From Fimbriimonadaceae bacterium (lineage in GTDB: Bacteria > Armatimonadota > Fimbriimonadia > Fimbriimonadales > Fimbriimonadaceae): a DNA stretch of 64,000 bases. Below, piece after piece: positions 44,267 through 56,044 of this stretch; within the stretch, counting starts at the first letter, position 1; every line of letters starts with the position of its first letter. A program made the position numbers and the translations under genes. The stretch spans positions 1,119,362 to 1,183,361 of the forward strand of contig CP075364.1 of NCBI GenBank assembly GCA_019454105.1, read 5' to 3'. The notes beneath the pieces are model-generated. The model was given only the letters and a program-made list of their open reading frames with translations, was not told the origin of the DNA and ran no database searches.

Positions 44267-45094
44267 ATGGGGCCCCCGACAATCGTCAGCGCCGCGTTCT
44301 TCGGACTGCGGACCGACCGCGACACTCGGGCGTACTATTCCACCTTGCTGAACCAACTGGCCCCGATCTATCCGGGCCCCGTCCATGTCTTCACCAACGA
44401 CCCGGGCGCGTTCGGCCATGGAATCGAAGTGGAGAAGGTCGACGACCTAGGCCCGTTCATGGCCGAGATCTGGCCCGATCCCGACTGGGAGGCCAAGGTC
44501 CGGCCCTTGCTTGGGTGGCACCGCCGAAACCACCGTCTGGCCCAATGGCGGCAGCCTCGTCTGTTGCTGCCCTGGCTCGCCAAGCCCGGGCTTGTCAGGC
44601 GGGCCGCCGAGCGACACGGACCGGTCTTTTGGCTTGACGCGGGACTGCTCTACAGCGTTGATCACGGTCACTCGGTACCGGCCGTCCCAGTCGGATACGA
44701 CGAGGGTCTGATCTATGACCGATTGCTTCCTGCGCTCGAGCGAGCGGCGAGGTCGCCGGTCCCGACAGTGGCCACCGTCGACCGGAAGGGAGGGTGGCAC
44801 AAGGCTTGGCGACCGACTTTTCATGGACTCAGTTGGGCGGACATGGGCCAGTTGGCGCGGCGGTGCGGGACACGTCCCGACGCGAGCCACACGGTCGGGG
44901 CGGCGGCCTACTGGCCCGAAGGGTGGCCAGCCCGCGTGACCGACGAAGGGCGCGACGTTTGGCGCAAAATGCTCGGGATGGGCCGGATCGGGACTGAGGA
45001 GACCGTCTTGAGCGTTTTGCGCTGGAAGCACGGCTGGGACGGGCTCAGCACGCAATCGTGGTGCCGCCTCATGGCTCCGGCTCCAGAAGAATGA
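44267..45094 (+). CDS. Uncharacterised protein of the glycosyltransferase island
   Basis: The 275-residue soluble protein begins IVSAAFFGLRTDRDTRAYYS. It has a GT-A-like alternation of strands and helices, a GPVFWLDAGLLYS block reminiscent of the metal-binding DxD-like strand in HtrL/YibB-type proteins, and several Trp-rich segments (RDVWRKMLGMGRIGTEETVL). No family can be named firmly. It opens a three-gene run with two GT4 enzymes (4-nt overlaps), so transfer of a sugar to a surface glycan is a fair inference. The ATG at 44267 is 8 nt after a TATACT box. Confidence 0.6.
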   Translation: MGPPTIVSAAFFGLRTDRDTRAYYSTLLNQLAPIYPGPVHVFTNDPGAFGHGIEVEKVDDLGPFMAEIWPDPDWEAKVRPLLGWHRRNHRLAQWRQPRLLLPWLAKPGLVRRAAERHGPVFWLDAGLLYSVDHGHSVPAVPVGYDEGLIYDRLLPALERAARSPVPTVATVDRKGGWHKAWRPTFHGLSWADMGQLARRCGTRPDASHTVGAAAYWPEGWPARVTDEGRDVWRKMLGMGRIGTEETVLSVLRWKHGWDGLSTQSWCRLMAPAPEE

Positions 45095-46062
45095 TGCGTT
45101 TTTGCTTTCTGGGAACGGGCCGCACGCCGATCCCGCCTCCCGGCCGAGGAGCGGTCGAGACGATCCTGTGGGCCTATCGAAACGAGTTGGTGGCGAGAGG
45201 ACACCACGTGTCGATCGTCAACGTCAAGAGCGACAGGCTTTGGGCCGCTTTGCCTCTGGCCGTTCGTCGCGAAGGCCCTTTCGATTGGGTGTGGTGTCAC
45301 CAAGAAAGAATGGTGCCGATAACCACCTTTTGGGGACGCGTGCTGGGGTTTCGCACTCTTGAGACCACCCATCGACCCGTGTCCGACGTCGAGCCGGTGG
45401 ACCGGTTCTCCGCCTGGCAGTTCAGGCGTGCGGCCCGGGCCCCATACCACGCGTGCCTGCAGGAGGACCTCGCCGTCGCGATGCGGGCCCTGAACCCAAA
45501 GAGCCGGGCGATGGTGCTCCCGAACGCGACCGAGGTCGGTGCGTATACCTGGAGGCCGGGCGGGAACGGGCGCGCCGTTTGCCTTGGCGGAGTGTCGTCC
45601 CGCAAGCGGCAGGCCGTGGTCGCCGTGGCTCTTGAAGGCAGCGGGGTGCATTGCGACTTTGTCGGTCCGATCGACCACGACGACGACCACACCCGGCTTA
45701 TCGCAGCCCATCCGAACTACTTGGGATCCTGGAGTCGGGAAGACGTCGTGGAGCGCCTGACCGACTACTCTTGCCTGGTGCTCTTCAGCGTGGCCGAATG
45801 CCATCCGTTAGTGGTCGGCGAAGCGATGGCGGCCGGGTTGAGCGTCGTGGTCTCGTCGTCGAGCACGGCCAACATGGACGTCAGTCTGCCTTGGGTGACG
45901 GTGGTGGACGACCCGCGGGAGCTTGGGTGCGCGGTCAAGCGGGCTATCTCCGAGAACCCAGCCCATAGATCGGCGATCCGCGACTATGCCGAAAAGAATC
46001 TGGCCTATGGGCCCACACTGAACCGGTTGCTCGCCCAGCTGAGGGAGTGGCAGGACTCGTGA
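45091..46062 (+). CDS. Glycosyltransferase family 4, tandem copy 1
   Basis: This 323-residue GT-B enzyme opens CFLGTGRTPIPPPGRGAVET, the acceptor-side G-rich loop of GT4 proteins. Later come GRAVCLGGVSSRKRQAVVAV, the donor loop, and AECHPLVVGEAMAAGLSVVV, which carries the E-x7-E-type signature for nucleotide-sugar binding. It overlaps the preceding gene by 4 nt and the next GT4 gene by 4 nt. It is clearly paralogous to the next gene. The expected product is a surface polysaccharide or glycolipid; donor and acceptor are unknown. Confidence 0.88.
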   Translation: MMRFCFLGTGRTPIPPPGRGAVETILWAYRNELVARGHHVSIVNVKSDRLWAALPLAVRREGPFDWVWCHQERMVPITTFWGRVLGFRTLETTHRPVSDVEPVDRFSAWQFRRAARAPYHACLQEDLAVAMRALNPKSRAMVLPNATEVGAYTWRPGGNGRAVCLGGVSSRKRQAVVAVALEGSGVHCDFVGPIDHDDDHTRLIAAHPNYLGSWSREDVVERLTDYSCLVLFSVAECHPLVVGEAMAAGLSVVVSSSSTANMDVSLPWVTVVDDPRELGCAVKRAISENPAHRSAIRDYAEKNLAYGPTLNRLLAQLREWQDS

Positions 46063-47072
46063 AGGGGCGCCTCTGCCTGGTCGGCCATGGCTCCATCCCG
46101 ATTCCTCCGCCCGGCTGGGGAGCGGTCGAGACAGTGATCCACGAACAGGCCACGATCTTGCGGGCCCGTGGGTGGGAGGTCGACATCGTCAACGTGAACC
46201 GCAAGTTGGCCCCGGGCGCGGTCGTCCGGTTGGCCCTGGGCGGCCGCCGCCCTGATTGGGTCTGGTGCCACAACGAGAAAGCAGTTCCGGGGCTGGCCCT
46301 CGCATGCTCGGCATTGAGTCTCCGGATGATCGCGACGAGCCACACGCCCGCGAGCGACTGGGCCGCCCGCGACTTTCCGGCCCACAGGCCGTTGTGCCGG
46401 GCGTCTCGGGCTGCCTTCCACTTGGCCCTGACCAAACCTGTGGCCACGACGATGAAGATCCTCAACCGGAAGTGCCTCGCCGAGGTCCATCCGAACGGCG
46501 TCGCCGTCGATCTCTTCCGATACTCGCCGACTGGGAACGGGAGGGCGGTTTGCGTCGGGCAGATCCACCATCGGAAAAGGCAGCCTGAGTTGCACCGCCT
46601 CGCCCAGCGGGAGGACCTCCCGATCGATTTTGTGGGGCCCCACGCCCAGGACTTGCCACCTCGCGACAGGATTGAAGGCTCTGACCTGTGGCTGGGAGAG
46701 TGGAGCCGCGGCGAGATGCACGACCGGCTCACCGAGTGGTCGTGCCTGGTGCTTTGGTCGGCTTCAGAGGCCCACCCGCTCGTCGTCCTTGAGGCCATGG
46801 CGGCCGGACTCTCCGTCGTGGTGAGTCCAGAGGCCTCAGCGAACCTTGACCGGAGCCTTCCCTGGATCCACATCGCCAAGACAGAAGAAGACGTCGCCAC
46901 AGCCGTCCGCGAGGCGGTCCATGCGAACCCGGCCTATCGCTCCCAGATCCGGGCATGTGCCAAAGAACGTTGGTCATGGGAGAAGGCGGTCGACCGGCTT
47001 GAGTCGATCCTGGACAAATGGGCCGGTGGACGGGCCCCCAACCCGCTGAGCCTCAATTTGGACGACCACTAA
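46059..47072 (+). CDS. Glycosyltransferase family 4, tandem copy 2
   Basis: This 337-residue paralogue of the gene before it shares PIPPPGWGAVETVI, PDWVWCHNEKAVPG, GRAVCVGQIHHRKRQPEL and SEAHPLVVLEAMAAGLSVVV. The order and spacing match copy 1 throughout, so a tandem duplication followed by divergence is likely. The GTG at 46059 overlaps the preceding stop as GTGA; a GTG at 46047 is possible. Its TAA lies in a CTAA that also contains the stop of the convergent biotin carboxylase gene. Confidence 0.88.
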   Translation: MKGRLCLVGHGSIPIPPPGWGAVETVIHEQATILRARGWEVDIVNVNRKLAPGAVVRLALGGRRPDWVWCHNEKAVPGLALACSALSLRMIATSHTPASDWAARDFPAHRPLCRASRAAFHLALTKPVATTMKILNRKCLAEVHPNGVAVDLFRYSPTGNGRAVCVGQIHHRKRQPELHRLAQREDLPIDFVGPHAQDLPPRDRIEGSDLWLGEWSRGEMHDRLTEWSCLVLWSASEAHPLVVLEAMAAGLSVVVSPEASANLDRSLPWIHIAKTEEDVATAVREAVHANPAYRSQIRACAKERWSWEKAVDRLESILDKWAGGRAPNPLSLNLDDH

Positions 47073-48592: not shown

Positions 48593-49723
48593 CTAGAAGA
48601 AGTCCATGCAGACGACGGACGATTGGGGAAAGAGCCGACCGAGCCTCTCGACGACGGCCGGCGAAGTGGCTTTGAGAAGGCCGACAGAGGCGAGTTGCCA
48701 GGCTGAGCATTCACCGAGGACGAGCTGTGCGAGGACGTCGATGCCCATCTCAGCGTCCGGGTCGCCTTCTGTGATTCGCTCGACCGAGTCTCCCAACCGC
48801 CAAAGTCCCTGGTTCCAAGGGGCGAGCTGGTCCGAGACTCTCAGCACGAGCCCTTTTTCCTCACCTAGAAAAGGAGCAAGGGACAGAGGAAGATCGATCA
48901 AGCGGAACATCGTGGGCCTGTGCAGGGCGACGCTGATCCCTTGATCCAGGTAATGCGGCACAAACAGACCGTCCCTCGGTTCGCACCAGGTGACAGTCGA
49001 CTGACTGGCCGCTATCCCCGACAGGAACGTCAGGACGCTCGCATGACCCCGGCTCGAAGTCCAGGCCACCTCTCCCACCACGGCCTCCCCCCAAAAGTCG
49101 GAAAGGTTCACCCAAAGGTAGGCCTCCGCCGGCTCGCCAAACGCATAGATGCTGGGGGGGCGCTTGCCGAGCCGGTCCTTCCAGTCAGCTTCGGTGCGCA
49201 TGAACGAGCCGGAACGGGCCCGTGCGAAGCTTGTATACACGGGATCGAGGCTCGGAGAGTCTTTCGCGGAAACCTGCCGAACTGGGAGCCCTCCGTCGAT
49301 CCGAGGCAACCGGTGGGCGGGGCACTTGATCTGCCATCGCCACCCGCAGGTGGCATAACCGAACTTTCTGTAGAACGGCTCCCGAAAGGCATAAAGGGCC
49401 GAAATCGCGAGACCCTCGTCTCTCATCGTGCCCAACACATCCGTCATCAGCCGCGAGGCTGCCCCAGTGCGCCGATGCTCCGGCAACGTCGCGACCACCG
49501 CCACACAACCGCACGACAAGTCTTTGTCGTTTCGGGCCACCGTTGTCCGGGTGACCGAACATGCCGACGCTGGTCGTCCGTCCAGCAGGGTCAAATAGCG
49601 TTTCTCGCCCTCCCTGGCGGGCTCGAACGGTTCGTCCGACGGTCGGTTGCGGTAGACAGTCTCGACGACTCCCCGCCAGGCGAGGGCCAAGTCTTGGCCT
49701 GCCTCGCGAGTCTCGAAGCTCAT
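48593..49723 (-). CDS. Eis-like GNAT N-acetyltransferase
   Basis: The 376-residue protein has an N-terminal GNAT domain (VAVVATLPEHRRTGAASRLM is the acetyl-CoA pyrophosphate loop, then ALYAFREPFYRKFGYAT), a second GNAT-like half, and a sterol-carrier-like end. It finishes VVCMDFF, matching the Eis family, where the C-terminal carboxylate of a Phe takes part in catalysis. Eis proteins acetylate amines, including aminoglycosides. The gene is coupled by a 4-nt overlap to the Lrp-type regulator, which may control it. The natural substrate is unknown. Confidence 0.85.
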   Translation of the reverse strand: MSFETREAGQDLALAWRGVVETVYRNRPSDEPFEPAREGEKRYLTLLDGRPASACSVTRTTVARNDKDLSCGCVAVVATLPEHRRTGAASRLMTDVLGTMRDEGLAISALYAFREPFYRKFGYATCGWRWQIKCPAHRLPRIDGGLPVRQVSAKDSPSLDPVYTSFARARSGSFMRTEADWKDRLGKRPPSIYAFGEPAEAYLWVNLSDFWGEAVVGEVAWTSSRGHASVLTFLSGIAASQSTVTWCEPRDGLFVPHYLDQGISVALHRPTMFRLIDLPLSLAPFLGEEKGLVLRVSDQLAPWNQGLWRLGDSVERITEGDPDAEMGIDVLAQLVLGECSAWQLASVGLLKATSPAVVERLGRLFPQSSVVCMDFF

Positions 49724-50229
49724 ATGGGCAAGCTGGACGTCTGCTTGTTCACGGCAAGCACGAAGCAGCTATGGATCTTGCCGACGCCATTGATCGAGCT
49801 CAGTTTCTCGCGCACCAGTTTTTCATATGACGCCATGTCGGGAACCACGACTTTGAGGAGGAAATCGAAATCGCCGGAGACGTGGAGGCACTCGAGCACC
49901 TCCTGGATCTCGCCGACTTCTTGCCGGAACCTCTCGATCGGCTGCTCCTGATGCAGGGCCAAGCTGACCATGGCCATGACCTGGAGCTTGAACCCGATCT
50001 TTTCCTGATCCAAGATCGCGACATAGCCCTTGATCAGGCCCGACTCCTCAAGCTTGCGCACGCGCTGCAGGACGGACGGCGGAGAGAGACCGACCCTCCG
50101 GGCCAATTCGGCGTTCGTGATCCGGCCGTCGTTCTGAAGGAGGCGCAAGAGCTGGGCATCGACTTCGTCCAGTCGAAACCGGACGCGTGATTCCGGGGCT
50201 TTCATCGGTTCGCGGTTCAAAAGTGCCAT
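49720..50229 (-). CDS. Lrp/AsnC-family transcriptional regulator
   Basis: This 169-residue regulator has an N-terminal winged helix (DEVDAQLLRLLQNDGRITNA, then ELARRVGLSPPSVLQRVRKL) and a C-terminal RAM ligand-binding domain (VSLALHQEQPIERF, LHVSGDFDFLLKVVVPD). Such proteins form octamers and respond to amino acids. ATG 50229 is fixed by AGGAG at 50236-50240, a 6-nt spacing; it is one of the few clear Shine-Dalgarno sites here. It is divergent from pepF and coupled to the Eis-like gene, so both may be its targets. Confidence 0.93.
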   Translation of the reverse strand: MALLNREPMKAPESRVRFRLDEVDAQLLRLLQNDGRITNAELARRVGLSPPSVLQRVRKLEESGLIKGYVAILDQEKIGFKLQVMAMVSLALHQEQPIERFRQEVGEIQEVLECLHVSGDFDFLLKVVVPDMASYEKLVREKLSSINGVGKIHSCFVLAVNKQTSSLPI

Positions 50230-50326
50230 CAATTTCTCCTGTCAAAGTGATCTCAGTTCCGGAGGGGCGAACGTCGGGCGGCGCCAAGCCTTTCTTGCTC
50301 CTCGAAAGGTATGTTCATCCAAGGCC

Positions 50327-52105
50327 ATGCGAACGATCGCTGAACTTCCCCGATGGGACCTGACTCCGTTCTTCTCCAGCCCTGACTCTACCGAATACCA
50401 TGAGGCCCGCGCGAGGCTGGCAGGGCTTGTCGAGCGTTGTTCAAGCGGAGTGCGGCGGCTCATGGACGGTGCGACGGCGCCCGAGCCAGGTCTGACGGCC
50501 CTGACGGGTGCCCTTCGGTCCAGTCTCGATTCGCTCAATGAGGCCCTCGCCCTGGCCCGGCTCCTCCGATCCTATTCATCTGCCATGGTGTCGACGGACT
50601 CCCGCAACGAGACGGCCCAGGCGGCGAGCAGCCTTCTGGCCCCTTCGATGACGGGGCTGTCACAAGCGCTCGCCCTGTTCGACGCTGCGGTCGCGCTTAT
50701 CGACCTCGACAGTTTGGGAGCCGATCCGGTCGTGCGGGCGCACCGATATCGCCTCGACCGCACCAAGGCCCGAGCCCACACGCTCTTGAGCCCGGAAGAA
50801 GAATCCTTGCTGGCCGAACTCGCCGACAGCGGGCCGCTCGCATGGTCGCGGCTCCACGGCAACCTGACGAGCCAAATCGTAGTGGAGTTCAAAGGCGAGA
50901 AGCTCCCCATGGCGAAGCTACAGACAATGGGTCGCGACCCAGACCCGGAGGTGCGTAGGGAGGCTTATCAAGCCGAACAGGCGGCGTGGAAGGAGAACGA
51001 GACCGCCCTGGTGGCGGCTATGAACAGCGTCAAGGGGCACTCTGTTCGGGTCAACGCGCGACGCGGCTGGCCGAAGCCGCTTGACGAGGCGGTCTTCACC
51101 AACGCCATCGACCGCACGATCCTCGACGCGATGATGGCGGCAGCCCACGAGTCCTTCCCTGACTTCCGCCGGTTCTTTCGGGCCAAGGCGCGTCTGCTCG
51201 GGCACGGCGGTGGCCTGCCATGGTGGGACCTTTACGCTCCTTTGGGACGATTCAAGACCTGGCCCTACGCTGAGGGGTGCGAGTTCGTGGTGCGCCACTT
51301 CCGAACGTACTCGGACAAGCTCGCCGACTTCACGCAAATGACCTTCGACCAGAACTGGGTGGACGCCGAGCCTCGTGCAGGCAAGCGCGGGGGCGCCTAC
51401 TGCACTGGACTCACCCCGGGTGTCAGCCGAGTGTTCATGAACTATGAGCCTTCTTTCCTCTCCGTCTCAACCTTGGCTCACGAATTGGGCCACGCCTACC
51501 ATGGCCTTTGTCTTCGCGAGCGGACCGAGCTCCAGTCGTCCCTCCCCATGACCTTGGCCGAGACGGCGAGTATCTTTTGCGAGACCCTGATCAAGCAGGC
51601 GGCCCTCGCCGAGGCTCATGGTGACGAGCGCATGGCCCTGCTCGACGCGACGCTCATGGGCCCGACCGGCGTCGTCGTCGACATCACGTCACGGTTCTTG
51701 TTCGAGCAAGAGGTTTGCGAAAGGAGGAGCGAACGAGAGCTTTCTGCAGCCGAGCTTTGCGACGCGATGCGGCGGGCCCAGGTGGCCACCTATGGCGACG
51801 GCCTCGATCCAGAGTGGCTTCACCCCTACGCCTGGGCCGGCAAGCCGCACTATTACGCCCGCGACTTTTACAACTTTCCGTACATGTTCGGTCTCCTCTT
51901 CGGACTCGGGCTCTATGAGGTGTACAGGGCCGAGCCGAACGGGTTCCACGAGCGTTACGACGCGCTCCTGTCGGACACGGGGATGGCCAGCGCGCTTGAA
52001 CTCGGCCAAAGGTTTGGCATCGACTTGCGCGAGTCCGACTTTTGGCGCCGATCGCTCGCGACAGTCCGCAAGGACATCGACGACTTCGTGTCGCTCGCTT
52101 CATGA
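50327..52105 (+). CDS. pepF: M3-family oligoendopeptidase F
   Basis: This is a cytosolic zinc peptidase that hydrolyses short oligopeptides. The 592-residue protein has the M3B layout, with long helices, and the metal site STLAHELGHAYHG (HExxH), followed 25-30 residues later by the third ligand in MTLAETASIFCETL. Other family blocks are AYCTGLTPGVSRVFMNYE and the C-terminal HYYARDFYNFPYMFGLLFGL. No signal peptide is present. It is coupled by ATGA to the HisH-like gene, an unusual partner. It is divergent from the Lrp regulator. Confidence 0.94.
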   Translation: MRTIAELPRWDLTPFFSSPDSTEYHEARARLAGLVERCSSGVRRLMDGATAPEPGLTALTGALRSSLDSLNEALALARLLRSYSSAMVSTDSRNETAQAASSLLAPSMTGLSQALALFDAAVALIDLDSLGADPVVRAHRYRLDRTKARAHTLLSPEEESLLAELADSGPLAWSRLHGNLTSQIVVEFKGEKLPMAKLQTMGRDPDPEVRREAYQAEQAAWKENETALVAAMNSVKGHSVRVNARRGWPKPLDEAVFTNAIDRTILDAMMAAAHESFPDFRRFFRAKARLLGHGGGLPWWDLYAPLGRFKTWPYAEGCEFVVRHFRTYSDKLADFTQMTFDQNWVDAEPRAGKRGGAYCTGLTPGVSRVFMNYEPSFLSVSTLAHELGHAYHGLCLRERTELQSSLPMTLAETASIFCETLIKQAALAEAHGDERMALLDATLMGPTGVVVDITSRFLFEQEVCERRSERELSAAELCDAMRRAQVATYGDGLDPEWLHPYAWAGKPHYYARDFYNFPYMFGLLFGLGLYEVYRAEPNGFHERYDALLSDTGMASALELGQRFGIDLRESDFWRRSLATVRKDIDDFVSLAS

Positions 52106-52683
52106 GCCGGCGCGTGGCGGTCGTGAGGACGGGGCGGGCGGGCTCGGCGTCGCTTCTGGCCGCGCTCCGGCGGTGCGGAGCGGAGCCGTTCTTTCCGGAA
52201 AACCCGGGCGAAGTCGAGGCGACGACTTTCTTGGCCCTCTGCGGAGCCGGACCGTTCGGTCAAGCGATGGCGGCCCTGGAGACAGCCGGTTTCGTCGAGC
52301 CTCTCCGCACCCGGATCGAGTACGACCGCCCGACGATCGCCATCGGGCTCGGGATGCATCTGTTGTTCGAGACCTGCGGCACTTTGGGGGGGATCGCCGC
52401 CGTGCCGGGAGAGGTCGGCCAACTCCCGAGCCCGCACATCGGCTGGAACGCGGTCGAGGGCGAGGACGCGACCTTGCCAGAGGGCCTCGCTTACTTCTGC
52501 CACTGCATGGCCACTCTGACCGAGCCGGACGGTTGGCTCGCCAGTTGGGCCGACCACGGTGGCCCCATCGTCGCGGCGGTCCAGAGAGGAACCGTGCTCG
52601 GGAGCCAGTTTCATCCCGAGCTTTCCGGTGGCTACGGCGAGCGGATCCTGCGGACTTGGCTCATGGAGTGGGCGTCGTGGTGA
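52102..52683 (+). CDS. HisH-like glutamine amidotransferase lacking the catalytic cysteine
   Basis: HisH supplies ammonia to HisF for imidazole-glycerol-phosphate synthesis. This 193-residue class-I amidotransferase-like protein keeps the histidine and glutamate of the triad in SQFHPELSGGYGERIL (His171, Glu173), plus GAGPFGQAMAAL. The nucleophile motif usually reads GICLGMQLLFE; here it is AIGLGMHLLFE, so Gly82 replaces Cys. The change needs two base changes at least. The oxyanion PG region reads CG. It overlaps pepF by 4 nt and the HisF-like gene by 4 nt (GTGA). Glutaminase activity is not expected. Confidence 0.82.
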   Translation: MSRRVAVVRTGRAGSASLLAALRRCGAEPFFPENPGEVEATTFLALCGAGPFGQAMAALETAGFVEPLRTRIEYDRPTIAIGLGMHLLFETCGTLGGIAAVPGEVGQLPSPHIGWNAVEGEDATLPEGLAYFCHCMATLTEPDGWLASWADHGGPIVAAVQRGTVLGSQFHPELSGGYGERILRTWLMEWASW

Positions 52684-53366
52684 AGAAGCGGGTCGTCCCG
52701 TGTCTCCAAGTCCGATCGGGCCGCGCTGTGCGCGAGGTCAAGTTCGAGGGGCTCGACGACCCCGGCGACCCGAAGGCGGTCCTGCTCGCCTTTCAAGCCC
52801 ATGGGGCGGACGAGGTCTACCTCGACCAATTCGCCGGCCCCGAAGACGATATTGGTTTGTTTGTTTCCGTCTTGGAGTCGGTGCGTGAGGAGTTGGCCAT
52901 TCCCATGACGGTCGGGGCCGCCTCCACGGTCGATGAGGCCGAGTCGTGGTTCATGGCTGGGGCGGACCGCGTGTCCGTCCAATTTGATCCGCCCGAAGGA
53001 CGCGACTTGTTGACCAGGCTCGTTGCGGTTCATGGAACCGAGCGGGTCGTGGCCAAAGTCTCCGGTGGGTCAGCGGCGAAAGTGGTCGCGGCCGAGGCCG
53101 AACGGCTCGGAGCCGGAGAGATCCTCCTCGTCCTCGCCAATGGAGATGGTCGAGACGTTGTCAGCCCCGTCTGTCATGCTGTCCGTGTGCCAGTCGCGAC
53201 GCTTGGCGCGACCGAATCGCCCCAAGCAATGCTGGCCGCGTTCGAGGCTGGGGCGGCGGCGGCCCTCGCCGCTACCGTCTTCGCCGATCAGGTTGTGACC
53301 GTCGCCGACATCAAGCGCCGCCTCGTCTCCCTCGGCGCCGACGTCCGACCGCCTAACGACCTCTAG
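52680..53366 (+). CDS. HisF-like TIM-barrel protein lacking both catalytic aspartates
   Basis: HisF cyclises PRFAR with ammonia to give IGP and AICAR. This 228-residue protein, about 25 shorter than usual, follows the HisF frame: KKRVVPCLQVRSGRAVREVK, GADEVYLDQFAGPED, AIPMTVGAASTVDEA, GAGEILLVLANGDGRD and an alanine-rich final strand. The first catalytic aspartate (PCLDV in active enzymes) is Gln10, and the second (VVAIDAKR) lies in VVAKVSGGS, with no acid. The phosphate-loop glycines of TVGGGI are altered, and a loop of about 20 residues after the second site is missing. The start is GTG. Classical activity is very unlikely. Confidence 0.82.
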   Translation: MKKRVVPCLQVRSGRAVREVKFEGLDDPGDPKAVLLAFQAHGADEVYLDQFAGPEDDIGLFVSVLESVREELAIPMTVGAASTVDEAESWFMAGADRVSVQFDPPEGRDLLTRLVAVHGTERVVAKVSGGSAAKVVAAEAERLGAGEILLVLANGDGRDVVSPVCHAVRVPVATLGATESPQAMLAAFEAGAAAALAATVFADQVVTVADIKRRLVSLGADVRPPNDL

Positions 53367-56044
53367 TCGGGTGTGGGCTTCAGGCTCTTGGCGAGAGCGC
53401 GCACCTGCGGCACCGGGTCGGACCGCAAAGAGAGGAAGCTCTCGATGTACTCCTGAGGGCATCGGCCAGCCAAGACGAGCAGGGCCTCGGCCCGGACCCC
53501 CGGTCTCGGGTCCATCAGCAGGGCCCCCACGCGGCCCAGAGCCTCGCCGCTCTTGGACTCGCCCAAAAGCCGGACCCCGACCCTGGCGCGGCGGTCGTCC
53601 GCGTCCATGACCAAAGTCGACGCGAGCGCGACGGCTTGGTCTGGAAACTTGCCAAGAAGCTGGGCCGCCGCCTGCCAGGTCGGCAAGTCGGTCGAGTTCA
53701 GCATCGATTGGGCCGTGCCGAGCGTACTCGGATCAGCGATCTGGTTCAACGAAACCATAGCGGCACGGGCCAGGAGCCGGTCTTGGCTCAGACACATGCG
53801 CGACAATGCGGGCAAGGCCCCGACCGCTTTGAGCGGGCCCGCCGCCTTGGCCGCAGGGAGCTGAAGCTCTGGATCCTCCAAAGCGGACGGGACGAACGCG
53901 GCGAATTCGGTCGCTCCTGCGTCGACGGCGATGCCGAGAAGATGGCGCCGCTCGGTGACACTGCCCTGGATCCAGGCCCGTGCCAGCACGGGCGAGGCGG
54001 ATGAGCCTAGGGCCTTGACGACGGCCGAGAAGCAGCGCTGCTGAAGACGGTCGGAGCCGGCCAGCCGCTGGGAGACCATCCACTCCAGTGCCGGCACCCC
54101 GATCGCGATCAGCTTGTCGGTCGCATCGGCGACGGCGGCCTGGGCTGAACCGACGCCCCACTGGGTCGCAGTCTTGTAGAGCGCGGCCAGTTGCTCGTCG
54201 CTGGGCTTGGGGGTCGATCCGGGTTCGGGCTGGGGTCGAGACTCGGTGGCCAGAGCGACTGAAGCCGATTCAGCGTCATACGCGACTCCCCAGGTCGAGC
54301 CCGAAGTGGCCGCGCCGTCCTTCAGGCCCTTTCGATAGTCGTCGGTTCCTCCCAGGTCGACGAAGACGCCCAACGAGCCCGTTCCCCGGGCTGCGTTGCC
54401 TTGGCCGGGCGGGCCCTCGTAGCGGTCGTTCCCGGCCGAGTCGATGAAGATCCCAAGCCCGTTGGCGACGCCGATCCCGGGTTGTCCCCCTTGCGAAGAG
54501 TAGCAATCATTGCCCGCTCGGTCGAGGAGCAGGGCCACACCGTAATCGTGGCCAATCGCGTGGCAAGCCCCCACCTTGACCATATAGGAATCATCGCCCT
54601 CCAGGTCGATCAAGTAGGCGGCGGTGACGTGCATCGCGCTCGCTTGGGCGTAGTGGTGGGCGGTATAGGAGTCGTTCCCAGTCGCGTCGAAGAGCGAGCC
54701 GAGGGCCAGCCAGTAGGACGCGCCCTGGCAATAGGTGTCGCCCAAGTAGGAGTCGTTGCCGCCCAGATCGCTGAGAAGGCCGATACCTCCGCTGACCCCG
54801 CCTGTGTCTTCGCGGTATCCGGAGGCGAACCCCTGGGCGAACGAGTAGGAGACGCCGGTGAAGAGAGGCTCGTTCATCGAGAGGCCGCCCGCGCGGTAGA
54901 TGTCCGATCCGGAGTGGTCGATCAACCAACCGACGCCTTGGGTACGGGCGGCGCCTTGGCCAAAGAGGCGGACGCTGTAGTGGTCGTCGCCCGCTCGGTC
55001 TTCACAGACTCCAACGCCGAAGAGCCCGAAACCTTGGGCCAACGCCCAAGAGCGGTAGACGTCGTTGCCTTGGGCATCGAGCAAGTAGCCGAAACCAGCG
55101 ATCCCGGCCCCAGCCGTGATGTTGCGTGCCGAGTAGACGTCGTCGCCTGAGAGGTCCACGGCAACCCCAACGCCCAAGACTCCGGCCCCGACCGAGAGAT
55201 CCCGGGTGGCGTACCGGTCGTCACCTGCCAGGTCGATCAAAACCCCGGTGTAGCCCACGCCGGCTCCGTGACGCCCACGGTAGACGTCGTCCCCACCAAG
55301 GTCGACAATGAGTCGGACGTCGGTCTCGTCGTGCTGGTCGTTCCCGTTTCCAGCGACGACGACAGGCAGGCCGTGCACCCGGAGGCGGACTTTCCCCTCC
55401 ATCGTCACCTTGGCGTCGCGAAGCTGCTGCGCGGCCCGTACAGCGACGCCGGCGACCAGCTCCCCGGCCTCGCGGATCTTGGCCAAATCAACCCGGGAGA
55501 GCAACTCGAGCAACCGCTTTCGAGGCGAAGGTTGAGATCGGACGAAGTCGAAGACGACCAAGGGTTCTTCGACCGCCATGACAGGGAGGCCCTCGATCAG
55601 CTCGCGCTGTTCGGCCGGGGTGAGTCCCTTGACCGCTTCAAGGATCTGGGCGTCCGAATGGCGCATCGCTTGGGTGAGGGCCGAGATTGGTGTCCGCAAC
55701 GGAGCAGCAAGGGCGTCCAGACCCTCGATCGTGGCTAAAGGCGCCGGCGACATCGGGGCCGCGCCCCCCAACACCTCGCGTCGAAGACTCGCGAACGGGT
55801 CCCCTCCTTCGACTCGGTGCAAGCGCATCAAAGGTTCGAGAGTGGCGATCGGGTCGCGAAGGGCCGCATCGACGAGGCCGAACCGATATTTGTCCTGGAA
55901 TGGCAGTCGTTCGAACAGGAGGTCCGACGGCTTCATGTTTCCGAGGAACAGGGCGTCGTCGACTCCTCGTCGTTCCTCGACCGTGAGTTGGGCCCAGCCC
56001 ACTGCCCCGAACATCGACACGACCGCGGCCAGCCAAAGGCGCAT
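53363..56044 (-). CDS. Exported repeat protein: twelve DxxGxDxY units plus HEAT-like repeats
   Basis: This 893-residue protein has a signal peptide (MRLWLAAVVSMFGAVGWAQ). Residues 20-240 are helical. From 248 to about 573 a unit like GxxxDxxGxDxY followed by small and glycine residues recurs twelve times. Its first Asp lies at 248, 271, 297, 323, 349, 376, 426, 453, 480, 508, 535 and 563, a period of 26-28 with one 50-residue gap. The acidic turns look suited to calcium, and a beta-solenoid is inferred. From about 610 to the end, helical HEAT-like repeats follow (ARAAMVSLNQIADPSTLGTA, VRAEALLVLAG). No named function is known. A CATAAT box is 5 nt before the ATG. It converges with the HisF-like gene on one CTAG. 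Confidence 0.8.
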   Translation of the reverse strand: MRLWLAAVVSMFGAVGWAQLTVEERRGVDDALFLGNMKPSDLLFERLPFQDKYRFGLVDAALRDPIATLEPLMRLHRVEGGDPFASLRREVLGGAAPMSPAPLATIEGLDALAAPLRTPISALTQAMRHSDAQILEAVKGLTPAEQRELIEGLPVMAVEEPLVVFDFVRSQPSPRKRLLELLSRVDLAKIREAGELVAGVAVRAAQQLRDAKVTMEGKVRLRVHGLPVVVAGNGNDQHDETDVRLIVDLGGDDVYRGRHGAGVGYTGVLIDLAGDDRYATRDLSVGAGVLGVGVAVDLSGDDVYSARNITAGAGIAGFGYLLDAQGNDVYRSWALAQGFGLFGVGVCEDRAGDDHYSVRLFGQGAARTQGVGWLIDHSGSDIYRAGGLSMNEPLFTGVSYSFAQGFASGYREDTGGVSGGIGLLSDLGGNDSYLGDTYCQGASYWLALGSLFDATGNDSYTAHHYAQASAMHVTAAYLIDLEGDDSYMVKVGACHAIGHDYGVALLLDRAGNDCYSSQGGQPGIGVANGLGIFIDSAGNDRYEGPPGQGNAARGTGSLGVFVDLGGTDDYRKGLKDGAATSGSTWGVAYDAESASVALATESRPQPEPGSTPKPSDEQLAALYKTATQWGVGSAQAAVADATDKLIAIGVPALEWMVSQRLAGSDRLQQRCFSAVVKALGSSASPVLARAWIQGSVTERRHLLGIAVDAGATEFAAFVPSALEDPELQLPAAKAAGPLKAVGALPALSRMCLSQDRLLARAAMVSLNQIADPSTLGTAQSMLNSTDLPTWQAAAQLLGKFPDQAVALASTLVMDADDRRARVGVRLLGESKSGEALGRVGALLMDPRPGVRAEALLVLAGRCPQEYIESFLSLRSDPVPQVRALAKSLKPTPD

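Follow-up and report, generated by a model that had tools for sequence, protein, structure and literature searches.

In the window, that is, the whole stretch of 64,000 nucleotides that was analysed, the two genes that follow oligoendopeptidase F (pepF) encode homologues of HisH and HisF, the two subunits of imidazole-glycerol-phosphate synthase (IGPS). Catalytic residues have been lost in both, the predicted folds are intact, and the face by which HisF docks HisH is preserved in preference to the catalytic face. The two proteins are designated HisH* and HisF* here. The reading put forward, to which slightly less than an even chance is given, is that they make up a lineage-specific pseudoenzyme heterodimer, produced together with oligoendopeptidase F, which would act by binding rather than by catalysis. 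Somewhat more tentatively, this doubly dead IGP-synthase heterodimer, with its docking surface kept, is taken to be a binding or regulatory module that works with oligoendopeptidase F.

Gene arrangement and family membership

First of all, HisH* (52102..52683, + strand; 193 aa, HisH-like class-I glutaminase fold) and HisF* (52680..53366, + strand; 228 aa, HisF-like (beta/alpha)8 barrel) are joined by a GTGA overlap (52680..52683, +), in which the stop of the former meets the start of the latter. Upstream, pepF (50327..52105, +), which encodes oligoendopeptidase F (peptidase M3), is the first gene of a likely pepF-HisH*-HisF* operon; its stop and the HisH* start form an ATGA overlap (52102..52105, +), at which translational coupling is expected. 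The initial annotation had described the overlapping pair and its coupling to oligoendopeptidase F away from any his gene, and the frames and both junctions were found exactly so, with the his operon of the genome lying about 406 kb from the pair. The divergent gene of an Lrp/AsnC-type regulator (49720..50232, −), syntenic with pepF in relatives, may encode a regulator of the operon.

Together with an Eis-like GNAT that carries an SCP2 domain, this regulator and pepF form a block (48593-52105 of the window) that is syntenic in several relatives, including the one designated G091; downstream of pepF the genes of these relatives are unrelated, and pepF is retained in relatives that are without the HisH*-HisF* pair. 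On its other side the pair is convergent with the gene of an 893-aa protein (53363-56044, −). In this protein GND/GDD-type motifs recur many times and HEAT repeats lie at the C-terminus; its gene overlaps the HisF* stop by 4 bases and was not found beside pepF in relatives. Further upstream (45058-47072, +) there are two neighbouring, overlapping group-1 glycosyltransferase genes with a common N-terminal PIPPPGxGAVET motif, which look like a tandem duplication.

As for family membership, HisH* matches the HisH family TIGR01855 with E=8.5e-29 and 100.8 bits, slightly below the curated cut-off of 105.4, and HisF* matches the HisF family TIGR00735 with E=8.7e-31 and 107.1 bits, far below the curated cut-off of 294.55; the Pfam GATase and His_biosynth matches of the pair exceed their cut-offs. 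Judged by these profiles, the kinship of both proteins to the IGPS subunits is not a matter of chance. A fourth, weak PF00977 match in the window belongs to a dihydrouridine synthase and was set aside as no further HisF.

The glycan-amidating systems WbuY/WbuZ and AglZ/HisF2 (NCBIfam) likewise have an additional HisH-HisF pair that lies apart from the his operon; there such HisH2/HisF2 pairs give ammonia to a sugar amidotransferase, and the two glycosyltransferase genes about 5 kb upstream would be in keeping with a role of this kind. However, HisF* scores 76.1 bits against the WbuZ family (cut-off 299.7) and 64.3 bits against the AglZ/HisF2 family (cut-off 310), both far below the cut-offs and lower than its HisF score; no WbpG-like amidotransferase was seen beside the pair, and ammonia production is not expected of a HisH* whose nucleophilic Cys is absent. 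Owing to the family scores and the missing Cys, glycan amidation was rejected and is held to be extremely improbable.

Active sites and the docking face

Residues were mapped by alignment of HisH* and HisF* to T. maritima numbering, using HisH and HisF reference sequences of this species whose key positions were checked. In HisH*, the nucleophile is replaced (C84→G82, T. maritima numbering first) and the His and Glu of the triad are retained (H178→H171, E180→E173), that is to say, the Cys-His-Glu triad is incomplete. N12, P49, V51, Q88 and E96 (T. maritima numbering) are lost as well, and among them Gln88 and Glu96 are glutamine-site residues of the HisH family. Two of the others concern the oxyanion hole, Val51 as the residue that forms it and Asn12 as its support in the active state (PMC8115485). 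At the interface, Trp115 and Tyr131 of HisH* are retained. The catalytic Cys is kept in all 80 of the 80 best GTDB HisH loci, and HisH* of the window alone is without it.

In HisF*, both catalytic aspartates are replaced (D11→Q10, D130→S128), G81/G82 are changed to Ala, the phosphate loops are broken, and the other changes include N103→Q, S201→L, T171→V, K19→R and D51→Q; the equivalent of K99 is Arg97, a conservative change. On an independent list of 23 published HisF active-site positions (PMC5980557), HisF* keeps 7/23 and the HisF of its own genome 20/23, the range over the latter and the canonical relatives being 20-22. About 20 residues are missing: on the catalytic face, one in-frame shortening follows beta5 (beta5-alpha5) and another lies in the beta6-alpha6 loop. 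The alignment agrees with the initial annotation on Gly82 in place of the nucleophilic Cys with His171 and Glu173 present, on Gln10 and an acid-free segment (aligned as Ser128) in place of the catalytic aspartates, and on the altered TVGGGI phosphate loop; the amount of its loop loss is right as well, but not the attribution to a single loop. Moreover, where side chains are expected to point into the HisF* barrel, large or hydrophobic residues have come in (A128→K, V48→Y, S201→L, T171→V), and the ammonia tunnel may be blocked at these positions.

Some of the replacements (A128→K126, L50→D49, V48→Y47, T104→Phe) go beyond simple loss, and the barrel fold and Asp156/Gly157 are retained, which is consistent with an enzyme that has acquired a new barrel site, for example Lys126 (on beta5, Ala128 in HisF) with Asp49, Asp156 or Cys8, and in which HisH* would serve as a structural cap. 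But no homologue with such a residue set and no clue to a substrate were found, the phosphate loops are broken, and the loops that usually form the pocket are shortened; a new enzyme is regarded as improbable.

AlphaFold2, supplied with aligned sequences of 39 canonical relatives, predicted that the eight-stranded barrel of HisF* is intact (pLDDT 91.7, pTM 0.90) and that HisH* has an intact HisH fold (pLDDT 95.9). Among solved structures, a Foldseek comparison placed the models closest to IGPS chains or to engineered derivatives of HisF. Among invariant HisF positions, HisF* keeps 20/23 on the HisH-docking (N-terminal) face versus 12/29 on the catalytic (C-terminal) face (Fisher p=0.0013; p=0.0019 at an 80% conservation cut), the faces having been split by the strands of the AlphaFold2 model after the residue lists had already been seen, and some of the kept positions being structural glycines. 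HisA, the sister barrel without a HisH partner, was taken as the control; in this small sample of six proteins, the docking residues R4, E45 and E147 are kept in 0% and the catalytic residues D10, D50, G80, G81 and D128 in 100%, and the retention pattern of HisF* is, as far as these alignments go, the mirror image of that of HisA.

The docking and gate residues of HisF* (Arg4, Glu45, Asp96, Arg97, Glu147 and Arg223) are kept or conservatively changed, and fE167 and the hinge pair fR249/hW123 are all retained in the pair. It has been reported that the alanine mutant of fE167 binds HisH 10-fold more weakly and that fR249/hW123 is a hinge pair (PMC9032424). Against a retained complex stands the absence from HisH* of N12, a residue in contact with fD98 when the complex is active; this contact belongs to activation. 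On the whole, the preferential preservation of the HisH-docking face fits a complex that is putatively retained.

Like IGPS of T. maritima (1GPW/7AC8), the pair consists of two genes with overlapping frames, has the same folds (predicted for the pair) and shares the docking-face residues (R5, E46, D98, E167 and R249; hW123 and hY138). Unlike IGPS, it is without the catalytic Cys and both catalytic Asp, and its phosphate loops and catalytic-face loops are degraded. That is to say, the predicted fold and the docking face of IGPS are present and its catalytic equipment is not; catalytic residues gone from an intact gene with an intact predicted fold are one mark of a regulatory pseudoenzyme.

Probable origin of the pair and history of the reading frames

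The same genome carries a complete hisG-hisB-hisH-hisF-hisA/IE operon at about 764-769 kb of the contig, with all catalytic residues present, which is the second, canonical hisH/hisF that the initial annotation had proposed to look for; histidine synthesis is therefore independent of HisH*-HisF*. The relative G091 has the same his operon (hisG 74% and hisA/IE 70% identical to those of the host). HisH* is 46% identical to the HisH of G091 and 41% to that of its own genome; for HisF* and the respective HisF proteins the identities are 39% and 37%. HisH* belongs to a subfamily with an HPELSG end and a TGxAN-like start, as do its own HisH and that of G091. In the tree, the branches are very long; HisF* is unplaced, and HisH* is placed only within the ELSG clade. 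Since the canonical hisH-hisF junction of G091 has the same GTGA overlap as the pair, hisH-hisF was probably copied as one block, and the insertion of this copy behind pepF would be the simplest account of the origin.

In this HisH subfamily, Leu/Ile (HPELSG) stands at the position of T. maritima Lys181 (HPEKSS), and TGxAN replaces the usual DYGxGN start; its loci are L013, L052-L056, L066 and L111-L114. Because the title of structure 2wjz, a T. maritima HisH that carries both K181A and Y138A, speaks of constitutive activity, the regulation of this subfamily may be different. In addition, several GTDB loci (L113, L126, L130, L135, L137, L138, L147 and L160) have HisH and HisF in one unbroken frame, and these are apparently natural bacterial fusions resembling yeast HIS7.

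Searches at the level of family, order, class and phylum, the last covering 291 genomes, yielded no orthologue of the pair, the best relatives being canonical; nor did scans of GTDB contigs by exact peptides and by alignment, in which the 80 best loci are all of canonical type and records very near the host genome are possibly absent; viral contigs and plasmids held canonical-type HisH/HisF or nothing. The pair is known from one genome only, as a sequencing or assembly artefact would be. But the host genome, of the order Fimbriimonadales, is one contig of 2.74 Mb that is 99% complete, and each gene has many independent active-site changes, all in frame and with normal codon usage, so that an artefact is scarcely credible.

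The absence of the pair from every relative searched and its very long branches would also agree with slow decay, that is, with a redundant duplicate that gathers active-site replacements and whose stop or frameshift is still to come. The branch dN of HisF* is 0.56 against 0.16 for its own HisF (about 3.4 times), and that of HisH* is 0.38 against 0.25 for its own HisH (about 1.5 times). However, at about 60% amino-acid divergence HisH* and HisF* have zero stops and zero frameshifts, all indels relative to the canonical pair are whole codons, the overlaps and codon usage are intact, and the losses are skewed to the catalytic face. The codon-position GC of the pair matches that of functional neighbours. 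When the genome's own hisH and hisF were simulated to drift without selection and stops were counted, drift to 41% identity gave a mean of 5-9 stops with P(no stop) <=0.005, and drift to 64% identity, in which part of the divergence is neutral, gave P(no stop) <=0.035. Differences between HisH* and its own HisH at codon positions 1/2/3 are 0.455/0.414/0.497, a weak third-position excess. In dN/dS estimation (NG86, YN00 and ML), dS was saturated and the ML dS absurd, and no omega is claimed for that reason.

Since stops are absent where the simulation yields them and the indels are whole codons, selection on the reading frames was probably active over most of the history of the pair, and recent relaxation is possible. 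Long neutral decay appears unlikely on these counts, and slow decay in general is given a low probability. The initial annotation had taken open frames and normal codon use to mean retained function; the codon use and the case against long neutral decay hold up, but the open frame does not carry much, for although that of HisF* runs open for 582 codons, this is weak evidence alone because the DNA is GC-rich (64.5% GC).

Comparable systems and the putative role

Regulatory dead paralogues are already known. PDX1.2 (PMC6829848), like HisF*, is a dead (beta/alpha)8 barrel that derives from a glutaminase-coupled enzyme (PLP synthase) and is retained in the genome; it is one non-catalytic subunit, occurs in eudicots only and regulates vitamin B6 synthesis, whereas in the present pair neither subunit is live and any role is putative. 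The trypanosome prozyme (PMC5201418) and a dead deoxyhypusine synthase (PMC3663545) are likewise dead paralogues whose binding surface is expected to be kept, but their partner is an active paralogue and has been shown biochemically, while the present pair is known from sequence and models. A pair with both IGPS subunits dead would be new, as a single case, and no paper on such a HisH/HisF pair was found in a literature search with few subscription journals.

In all three of these precedents the dead paralogue binds an active relative, and the main functional rival is of the same kind: HisF* would dock the genome's own HisH, or HisH* its own HisF, and the mixed IGPS would inhibit, stabilise or tune histidine/purine flux. 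The canonical partners are encoded by the same genome, and the retained docking residues are those common with canonical HisF. On the other hand, both members of the pair are dead and have stayed together in overlapping frames, an arrangement for which a one-subunit poison has no need; the pair adjoins pepF and no his genes; and HisH* and HisF* share just 41% and 37% identity with the subunits whose place they would take. Such subunit exchange is considered unlikely, if less so than the other rivals.

According to the preferred reading, a pseudoenzyme heterodimer produced with oligoendopeptidase F, the hisH-hisF block would have been copied and placed after pepF in one lineage, and both subunits would then have lost catalysis together with the sites for glutamine and phosphate and several inward tunnel positions, with their folds and mutual docking face retained. 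The HisH*-HisF* heterodimer would still be formed, its production in step with PepF, and would act without chemistry by binding another protein, for which PepF and a regulator related to amino acids are candidates. The pepF overlap and the adjoining Lrp/AsnC regulator suggest a role linked to peptide or amino-acid use. The paired pseudoenzyme complex with a new role that the initial annotation had put forward as possible is favoured by the loss of catalytic residues in both subunits and the sparing of the docking face. Ligand sensing, its suggested role, is not, for the losses fall on the site for glutamine, the two for phosphate and the tunnel-side positions; sensing of PRFAR, IGP or glutamine by the pair appears unlikely because those ligand sites are gone.

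In the precedent regulatory pseudoenzymes found here, one dead subunit stands beside a live one, and in the present case both subunits of a coupled bienzyme are concerned; homology-based annotation as HisH/HisF can mislabel non-enzymes. If the reading is true, docking would be set apart from both catalysis and allostery in a glutamine amidotransferase complex that has been the subject of much study, and the pair would offer a natural test of the interface residues that serve binding only (fR5, fE46, fE167, fR249 and hW123, which are kept) against those of activation (hN12, hV51 and fK19, which are changed).
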